DNA of 28,288 bases, from positions 1-28,288 of IMG/VR virus record IMGVR_UViG_3300025101_002729, one strand, 5' to 3'. This DNA is from a virus. The first letter of the stretch is position 1, and each line of letters begins with the position of its first letter. This document shows, in pieces, positions 7,305-8,550 of the stretch. The position numbers were made by a program, and so were the translations under genes. The notes beneath the pieces were generated by a model that saw nothing but the letters and a program-made list of their open reading frames with translations, made no database searches and was not told the origin of the DNA.

Positions 7305-7636
7305 TTGACTCTACCATACTGATCCTCTAATCTAATAATATCATCTTCTTTACATTCACCTAATTGAACCTCAATAAAAACTAAACGTTCTTGATTAGCC
7401 TTTGCTCGGTGAACCTCTTTTTTGTTAATCATAATTCTATCACCAACAACACCTTGGAAATCCACACCATTAACATGTATAGTTCCACTACCTTCTACAA
7501 TTGTCCAATGCTCCTCTCTAAGATTATGATACTGTAGAGAGAGTTGTTGTTGAGGTAAGATTATAATTCTTTTTACTTTGTATGTTGGTTCGTCCAACAA
7601 TACCTCATATGATCCCCATGGTTTATCTACTTTCAT
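7301..7636 (-). CDS. Mannose-6-phosphate isomerase, type II cupin domain
   Basis: A 111-residue single-domain cupin. MKVDKPWGSYEVL is the classical entry (KPWG-x-YE) of the C-terminal isomerase domain of bifunctional mannose-6-phosphate isomerase/GDP-mannose pyrophosphorylases. The metal-binding pattern LQYHNLREEHWTIVEGSG gives H37, E41 or E42, and H43, and VHRAKA gives H76. It would convert fructose-6-phosphate to mannose-6-phosphate, the first step towards GDP-mannose for the epimerase downstream. No pyrophosphorylase domain is attached. An upstream GTG at 7669 extends the frame by 11 codons through the terminator-like hairpin. I prefer the ATG at 7636, which matches the family start exactly. 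It is preceded by a structured leader and so is probably regulated at the RNA level. Confidence 0.82.
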   Translation of the reverse strand: MKVDKPWGSYEVLLDEPTYKVKRIIILPQQQLSLQYHNLREEHWTIVEGSGTIHVNGVDFQGVVGDRIMINKKEVHRAKANQERLVFIEVQLGECKEDDIIRLEDQYGRVK

Positions 7637-7643
7637 ATCAATT

Positions 7644-7694
7644 AAAAAAAATAAGACCCTCTGCCCCACTTATAAAGTTGCATCTTAGGTCTTA
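7644..7694 (-). terminator. Terminator-like hairpin that competes with the leader junction
   Basis: On the minus strand TAAGACC (7694-7688) can pair with GGTCTTA (7658-7652), seven perfect pairs plus one G-U, and is followed immediately by eight T (7651-7644). The 29-nt loop contains weaker internal pairing: TGC with GCA, then ACTT with AAGT (7678-7675 with 7671-7668). The loop is long for a plain intrinsic terminator. The 5' arm is also the 3' strand of the 9-bp helix that closes the upstream three-way junction, so the two structures exclude each other. Confidence 0.6.
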
Positions 7695-7888
7695 AAAGAA
7701 AGGGGGAGGTTGGATTCCTGTATACCAACAAAAGATGGGCATTACTACAGAGTAAATACATCTTTGCCTAAGACCTATCTGGTAAGATAGTTCTGCCATT
7801 CCTGACAGCGAGCACCACCTCTGTCTCATCACCTTAACCAGCAATATGCCAGTAAGTTTATTCAGTCACTCCCTATGTCGCGTCCGAC
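7644..7888 (-). ncRNA. Structured leader RNA or small RNA (candidate riboswitch/attenuator)
   Basis: About 250 nt without a convincing gene between a sigma-70 promoter and the isomerase ATG. Helices visible on the minus-strand RNA are: UGUCG/CGACA (7889-7885 with 7880-7876, tetraloop); GACAG/CUGUC (7825-7821 with 7808-7804), competing with CUGUC/GGCAG (7808-7804 with 7797-7793); CUAUCU/AGAUAG (7790-7785 with 7780-7775); P1 UAGGUCUUA/UAAGACCUA (7777-7769 with 7694-7686, nine perfect pairs). P1 encloses P2 AAAGAUG/CAUCUUU (7765-7759 with 7737-7731), which is capped by UUACU/AGUAA (7755-7751 with 7746-7742), and P3 GUUGG/CCAAC (7729-7725 with 7713-7709). P1, P2 and P3 make a three-way junction. 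No known riboswitch consensus is recognised. Cyanophage wcaG-type RNAs also precede sugar genes, but identity is untested. Confidence 0.6.
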
Positions 7889-7894
7889 AAACTT

Positions 7895-7923
7895 ATTATG
7901 ACATACTATCTGAGAGTTGTCAA
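7895..7923 (-). promoter_or_regulatory. Sigma-70 promoter for the structured leader
   Basis: On the minus strand TTGACA (7923-7918) is followed by 17 nt and CATAAT (7900-7895), one mismatch from consensus overall. The TGA stop of the upstream 67-aa gene (7922-7920) is embedded in the -35 hexamer. The predicted transcription start is near 7888, at the foot of the first hairpin of the leader. Confidence 0.8.
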
Positions 7924-8123
7924 CCCTCTGATTCTCGGTAGTAATCGTCTAGTGGTTCTAGTGATAAAACTTCTATATCATCGTCACCGATCTCAAGTTC
8001 TATCCATTCTGCAAACTCTTTGTATATAGCATTTTTATCGGCGACTGGTTGTGCTTCATCTATACGAGCAATAGACCACTTACGTGTTGAATATACGGTC
8101 TCCTCAGTCGATGTTCCCTTCAT
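7920..8123 (-). CDS. Hypothetical protein, 67 aa
   Basis: A 67-residue acidic protein, from MKGTSTEETVYSTRKW to the C-terminal DDYYRESEG. The open frame extends upstream to 8339, but that part lies entirely within the GIY-YIG-like gene in another frame. The ATG at 8123 gives a normal 20-bp overlap and a GAAAAG ribosome-binding-like stretch just upstream. The motif KEFAEWIELEIGDDDIE suggests an amphipathic helix followed by an acidic turn. Function unknown. Its stop codon is part of the -35 box of the next promoter. Confidence 0.6.
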   Translation of the reverse strand: MKGTSTEETVYSTRKWSIARIDEAQPVADKNAIYKEFAEWIELEIGDDDIEVLSLEPLDDYYRESEG

Positions 8124-8550
8124 AGTAATCTTTTCTAAAATATCTTGAGAGTATGTTGCTATTGTAGTATTTTGGGGTTCCATCGTCAAGCTGCTCCGTA
8201 AGAACCCTGTTCGTAAAGAGTTGTCTGGTTTCTTCGTAGTTTGTTTTGCCCTTTGTATAATGTAATGATAAGATAGTTCGACTAAAATTTTGTTTACCCA
8301 ATCGTCCAATTTCTTCTTTAAGTTCCGGACAAGACCCATAATACTTCTTCCAATCAGATTCTGATTTTACTTTTCGTTTTTTACCTTTAGGAGTTCTGAA
8401 CTGCCAAAAATATTTACGTCCGATATATTCCCTACCGTTCTTATTATTTGTAATGATGTAGACGTAACCGAAGAAATCGCCAATATCATTAGAAGAGAAA
8501 TTTGAACCTTTATATAGCCAGGGATTTTCATAATCAATAGTCATACTCAT
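8104..8550 (-). CDS. GIY-YIG-like nuclease-family protein
   Basis: A 148-residue protein. Residues 28-35 (GYVYIITN) and 40-46 (REYIGRK), followed by KYFW, match the GIY and YIG elements of GIY-YIG domains, with the first element reading Y-V-Y as in Seg-like and related T4-family proteins. The lysine-rich TPKGKKRKVKSESDWKKYYG segment follows. The catalytic Arg (R45 or R40) is present, but I cannot place the usual glutamate with certainty. It could be a free-standing homing endonuclease beside nrdB, a common location for such elements in T4-like phages, or a fixed phage gene of other function. The start is the ATG at 8550 or at 8544. It overlaps the preceding gene by 17 bp. Confidence 0.65.
   Translation of the reverse strand: MSMTIDYENPWLYKGSNFSSNDIGDFFGYVYIITNNKNGREYIGRKYFWQFRTPKGKKRKVKSESDWKKYYGSCPELKEEIGRLGKQNFSRTILSLHYTKGKTNYEETRQLFTNRVLTEQLDDGTPKYYNSNILSRYFRKDYYEGNID

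Follow-up and report, generated by a model that had tools for sequence, protein, structure and literature searches.

A conserved 3' hairpin module and a fixed-distance promoter accompany manA RNA in cyanophage DNA

The gene-free leader of a mannose-6-phosphate isomerase-type cupin gene in virus record IMGVR_UViG_3300025101_002729 (analyzed over its whole 28,288 nucleotides, hereafter the window) is a known class of structured RNA, manA (RF01745), regulatory in position. Directly 3' of it lies a hairpin with a receptor-like internal loop that, on comparison of related loci, is a previously undescribed conserved module, and this is our main new finding. This module, a promoter at a fixed distance and a pattern of one copy per genome are additions to the RF01745 model, to the excerpted text of the 2010 description of manA and to the literature found. 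Sequence comparison establishes how manA folds, where its promoter lies, that the hairpin is conserved and that the layout is that of an attenuator.

Results

The leader matches manA RNA over its full length

Using cmscan, we matched positions 7889-7699 (minus strand) to RF01745 over model positions 1-192, at 191 bits where the gathering threshold is 55.2. The earlier note had recognized no known riboswitch class here, which the Infernal search against Rfam that it proposed overturned. The window holds a single manA, the only RNA family matched by cmscan; no other Rfam family, including wcaG, matched it up to E=1, and tRNA and tmRNA were rejected as the identity of the RNA since ARAGORN found none. 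The RNA occupies a potential 5' UTR in cyanophage DNA, on the same strand as the cupin gene (7636-7301, minus strand, 111 aa; a mannose-6-phosphate isomerase C-terminal-type cupin, PF01050 1e-22), whose ATG is at 7636. The gene content of the window is of the T4-like cyanophage type, and the relatives are cyanophages. The 2010 paper (Weinberg et al. 2010, PMC2864571) lists manA as a probable riboswitch that occurs in T4-like cyanophages and marine metagenomes, with downstream genes that belong to mannose/fructose metabolism, nucleotide synthesis, photosynthesis or the chaperones; the RNA described here has the same helices, the same marine T4-like cyanophage setting and the same position 5' of a mannose-isomerase-type gene. 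Our literature search turned up no experiments on manA RNA later than that paper.

We assessed covariation in 88 relatives that also carry the downstream hairpin, and of the RF01745 consensus helices, P1, P4, P5 and P6 are kept by compensatory changes, with 4-5 double-change pairs each. Two elements follow the Rfam structure: a 5' hairpin (7889-7885/7880-7876; 92.5% canonical, two double-change pairs) and the true manA closing helix GGGAG/CUCCC (7873-7869/7708-7704), which is nearly invariant (99.5% canonical) and has a pair probability of about 0.9. In helix P1 (7828-7823/7774-7769), pairing is 99.8% canonical and four of the six pairs show double changes (UGAGAC/GUCUCA, UGAGUC/GACUCA and other variants); the helix measures 6 bp in 77 of 78 RNAs. 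Arm P4 (7808-7793, CUGUCA-GGAA-UGGCAG) ends in a GNRA tetraloop, a candidate docking loop, and has double changes in five of six pairs, and arm P5 (7790-7775, CUAUC/GAUAG with loop ACCA) in four of five. The two arms that the earlier note had drawn inside its three-way junction are real manA helices with compensatory changes: P6 (7765-7731, 7+4/5 bp; 7765-7759/7737-7731 and 7755-7752/7745-7742), with double changes in five of seven outer pairs, and the 5-bp P7 (7729-7725/7713-7709), 100% canonical with one double-change pair. An unconstrained minimum free energy fold of the leader contains the manA closing helix, P1, P3-P7 and the 3' hairpin; its energy is not lower than that of shuffled sequences (z -0.84), so that energy alone is uninformative. 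The invariant loop GUGGUG (7818-7813) might kiss the invariant loop ACCA (7783-7780) through UGGU/ACCA pairing, and this may be the pseudoknot that the 2010 drawing shows as questioned.

A conserved hairpin follows manA RNA

The hairpin at 7693-7653 (minus strand) consists of a terminator stem, AAGACC/GGUCUU (7693-7688/7658-7653), interrupted by a receptor-like internal loop (CCUAAGAUGC / GGGCAGAGGG). Eight U (7651-7644), read from the sequence, follow it and end 7 nt before the ATG, with no Shine-Dalgarno sequence evident between the two. A G+C-containing hairpin and a U-run make this a predicted intrinsic terminator, and the earlier description of a gene-free structured leader with a terminator-like hairpin directly before the cupin gene was right. 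The hairpin represents a conserved ~41-nt element, GACCUAAGAUGCA...GGGCAGAUGGUC, with the consensus GACCUAAGAUGCA-ACU(C)nnnn(G)AGU-SGGGCAGAUGGUC. Its stem covaries among the 88 relatives (G-C in 70, A-U in 18), as a check for covariation proposed with the terminator model had asked, and its internal loop is invariant save one base, which is U or G.

The element is tied to manA. It sits 178-191 nt 3' of the manA GGGAG in 28 of 103 manA loci (about 27%), and a scan of the collection with the hairpin alone found manA upstream in 101 of the 102 element sites with enough upstream sequence; the single exception looks like a chance match in other DNA. The hairpin lies outside the RF01745 model and matched no Rfam family up to E=1. 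It was absent from INPHARED phages by BLAST, and absent also on reading the loci of 13 cultured manA phages. Just 3' of manA in P-HM1 and MED4-213 stands another conserved terminator-like hairpin, AAACCUCGUGAUGCUAUCUUUCGCCUCUCCGAGGUUUUUU.

At least five T directly follow the stem in 44 of 60 hairpin loci outside gp32 and in 3 of 35 before gp32, which means that the module is retained even where termination is impossible. Counted over 75 hairpin-bearing unique loci, a U-run of at least five is present in 39 and missing in 36, and termination would thus not be the sole role of the hairpin. Where a U-run exists, the distance to the ATG is short (median 13 nt; at most 20 nt in 34 of 43 loci), leaving no room for another promoter.

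A sigma-70 promoter lies at a fixed distance

A -35 box (TTGACA, 7923-7918), overlapping the stop codon (7922-7920) of the upstream ORF, and a -10 box (CATAAT, 7900-7895) are separated by a 17-nt spacer, and the predicted transcription start at about 7889-7888 is the first base of manA. This arrangement is general: a consensus sigma-70 promoter (penalty <=2) ends 5-6 nt before the manA RNA in 96% of 195 loci, compared with 1% of 678 control windows. The late promoter TATAAATA was rejected as the general manA promoter, since no more than 18 of 206 loci have it, and the examples seen double as TTGACA-TATAAA sigma-70 sites. In many manA loci the terminator of the upstream gene overlaps the manA promoter, and in the upstream sequence GAGGGTGTTGACACCCTCTTTTTTT the -35 box TTGACA lies inside the terminator hairpin. 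Just upstream of the manA cassette, the window encodes a SegE-type GIY-YIG homing endonuclease (8104-8550, PF19835), which overlaps an out-of-frame ORF (7920-8339).

The hairpin resembles a tetraloop receptor

The internal loop, CCUAAGAUGC opposite GGGCAGAUGG, is like the 11-nt tetraloop receptor (CCUAAG/UAUGG) of group I/II introns and RNase P but not identical to it. The 5' strand CCUAAG and the end of the 3' strand, AUGG, are shared; where the receptor has UAUGG, the hairpin has GAUGG (83 of 88) or GAGGG (5 of 88), plus one extra A. The one variable base of the loop is at the position that we take to be bulged in the 11-nt receptor. The account in PMC11381326 agrees with this. The 11-nt receptor is specific for GAAA, whereas the loops that accompany the hairpin are any GNRA or GCAG (GAGA, GCAA, GAAA, GCGA, GGAA, GUAA and GCAG all occur). 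GNAG loops have a GNRA-like fold, and the IC3 receptor accepts any GNRA (PMC3494683).

The P4 loop (GGAA here) is of the GNRA/GNAG type in 76 of 77 manA RNAs with the hairpin and in 88 of 117 without it (p 2.5e-6), the latter including UUCG, CUUG, UUUA and CCCAA loops. Within gp32 loci alone, the counts are 26 of 26 with the hairpin versus 8 of 21 without. When a Pagel-type test was run on a core tree, it favored dependence (LR 24.7), with the GNRA fold essentially never lost while the hairpin is present, although the test is liberal, since of seven control traits one came to LR 21.2. The association supports the hypothesis that the P4 GNRA loop may dock on the internal loop of the hairpin. 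Rigid docking was rejected: a correlation of helix and linker length would be expected, and P4 length (mostly 4-6 bp) showed none with linker length.

Discussion

Beyond structure and layout, we infer a mechanism that we consider somewhat probable, in which manA would form the 5' end of its own sigma-70 transcript and the manA-specific hairpin with its U8 would attenuate the cupin gene. RNA polymerase would start at the promoter, make a transcript with the manA RNA at its 5' end and stop in part at the U8 run, so that the cupin gene would be made by read-through only. Less certainly, the P4 GNRA loop would dock into the receptor-like loop of the hairpin, the state of the manA core would set the stability of the hairpin and with it termination, directly, and a folded core would mean less gene expression. 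For the attenuator count the RF01745 match, the compensatory changes, the fixed promoter, the occurrence of the hairpin only after manA, the short distance from U-run to ATG and the link between GNRA loops and hairpin. Against it, or against docking, count the lack of an exclusive helix, the 36 of 75 hairpins without a U-run, the variable length of P4, the varied GNRA loops and the liberality of the tree test. The layout of promoter, structured domain, hairpin with U-run and start codon within 7-20 nt is that of transcription-terminating riboswitches and attenuators; unlike these, manA has no conserved mutually exclusive helix. An optional tetraloop receptor within manA's own terminator/leader hairpin, which would let the core regulate by tertiary docking on the terminator with no strand exchange, is a tentative proposal, possible but on the whole doubtful.

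The strongest competitor, which we nevertheless find rather unlikely, treats manA as a stand-alone non-coding RNA of the phage, driven by its promoter and acting in trans, with an incidental neighboring gene and a 3' end made variously by the receptor hairpin and U-run, by a plain terminator or by tRNA processing. The genomic distribution speaks for it, as does the promoter of its own in 96% of loci. All 13 complete cyanophage genomes that carry manA (11 plus S-SSM7 and P-TIM40) have exactly one copy, at about seven different sites (among them after gp23, before talC, after regA near hsp20, before gp32, after psbA/ferredoxin and directly before tRNA-Gly), and P-HM1 and P-HM2, classed as one species, carry it at different places. 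The downstream genes of 180 unique loci, named mostly from N-terminal sequences and not by database search, are very mixed: gp32, talC, thyX, hsp20, HAD-type genes, small hypotheticals, structural genes and few cupins. In 14 loci a tRNA gene begins within about 50 nt 3' of manA, too close for a terminator, or a ribosome site that serves a gene, to fit in between. On the other side, manA heads directly to an ORF with no terminator or tRNA between in 82 of 206 loci, the U-run loci are leader-like, with the start codon within about 20 nt in 34 of 43, and manA is missing from S-SM1, Syn1, S-PM2, Syn33 and S-SM2. The wandering single copy, the mixed neighbors and the tRNA adjacency thus make a mannose-specific ligand less likely, and a stand-alone RNA stays a live option.

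Some observations on individual loci belong here. In S-SSM7 and 14 IMG/VR loci (e.g., L005, L020, L031 and L048), a tRNA (Asn, Gly, Asp or Tyr) stands almost directly after manA, which suggests that RNase P releases the 3' end of manA at such loci. Genes annotated in GenBank as hypothetical proteins T4-GC 428, 524, 569 and 570 are the manA RNA genes of P-SSM4, S-SSM5, P-HM1 and P-HM2, and such small proteins annotated over manA RNA genes are probably spurious. Antisense downstream genes (L152, L207 and P-TIM68) were dismissed as artefacts of ORF choice, forward ORFs being present. We also rejected the idea that manA belongs to bacteria: a pattern search of the genome contig collection gave 17 matches, of which just three proved to be manA, one on a 189-kb contig from a Prochlorococcus single-cell genome and two on MAG contigs that are probably phage. 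A Flavobacteriales MAG (L433) and a gammaproteobacterial MAG (L441) hold full manA on short contigs that are probably mis-binned cyanophage DNA.

Quite improbable, in our judgment, is that the 3' hairpin is no terminator but a structural or translational leader domain through which manA controls translation or mRNA stability, with the U-rich stretch as a site for ribosomal protein S1 and the hairpin docked on manA. The hairpins without a U-run, mainly before gp32 (fewer than five T in 32 of 35), are in keeping with such a role, as is the lack of an evident Shine-Dalgarno sequence before the cupin gene. The at least five T found directly after most stems outside gp32 argue against it, and so does the plain terminator that occupies this place in 35 further manA loci, a type of call that was also made in 15% of control windows.

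The transcriptional ON switch of the earlier note, in which a 9-bp helix (7777-7769, UAGGUCUUA, with 7694-7686, UAAGACCUA) would close a three-way junction and block the terminator, is highly improbable: the complementarity is indeed perfect in the window, though in no relative, and its strands overlap the terminator, but the helix is broken in most relatives (78% canonical cells, no double-change pairs, outermost pair C-A in 79 of 88), pairs no better than chance (longest contiguous pairing 5.59 bp on average versus 5.47 with shuffled partners, 11 being reached by the window only), and would take the 3' strand of the covarying P1. With a base-pair probability of 0.00 and a penalty of 8.4 kcal/mol if forced, added to this lack of conservation, the switch logic falls. 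A second exclusive pair proposed upstream (GACAG/CUGUC versus CUGUC/GGCAG, 7825-7793) is likewise unconserved, 7821/7808 being C-C in 73 of 88. No overlap of a manA helix with the terminator is conserved among the relatives, and the conserved alternative aptamer/terminator pairing of a classical riboswitch expression platform is not seen. The broader reading as a riboswitch or attenuator stays plausible, from the leader position and the hairpin, even though the switch model was wrong.

The sugar-phosphate or nucleotide-sugar ligand guessed from the cupin gene is a weak guess. We do not favor a mannose-type ligand, since this cupin follows just a few percent of manA RNAs and many others stand before gp32, talC, thyX, hsp20, tRNAs and further genes; if manA senses a signal at all, this probably reflects infection or metabolism in general and is not a mannose metabolite.

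For functional constructs, a 3' boundary through 7644 is now defined; if the RNA is cut at the Rfam end, the module is lost. For manA, an orphan among riboswitch candidates ever since 2010, the new features shift the order of tests, with transcript ends and tertiary docking first and mannose ligands last.
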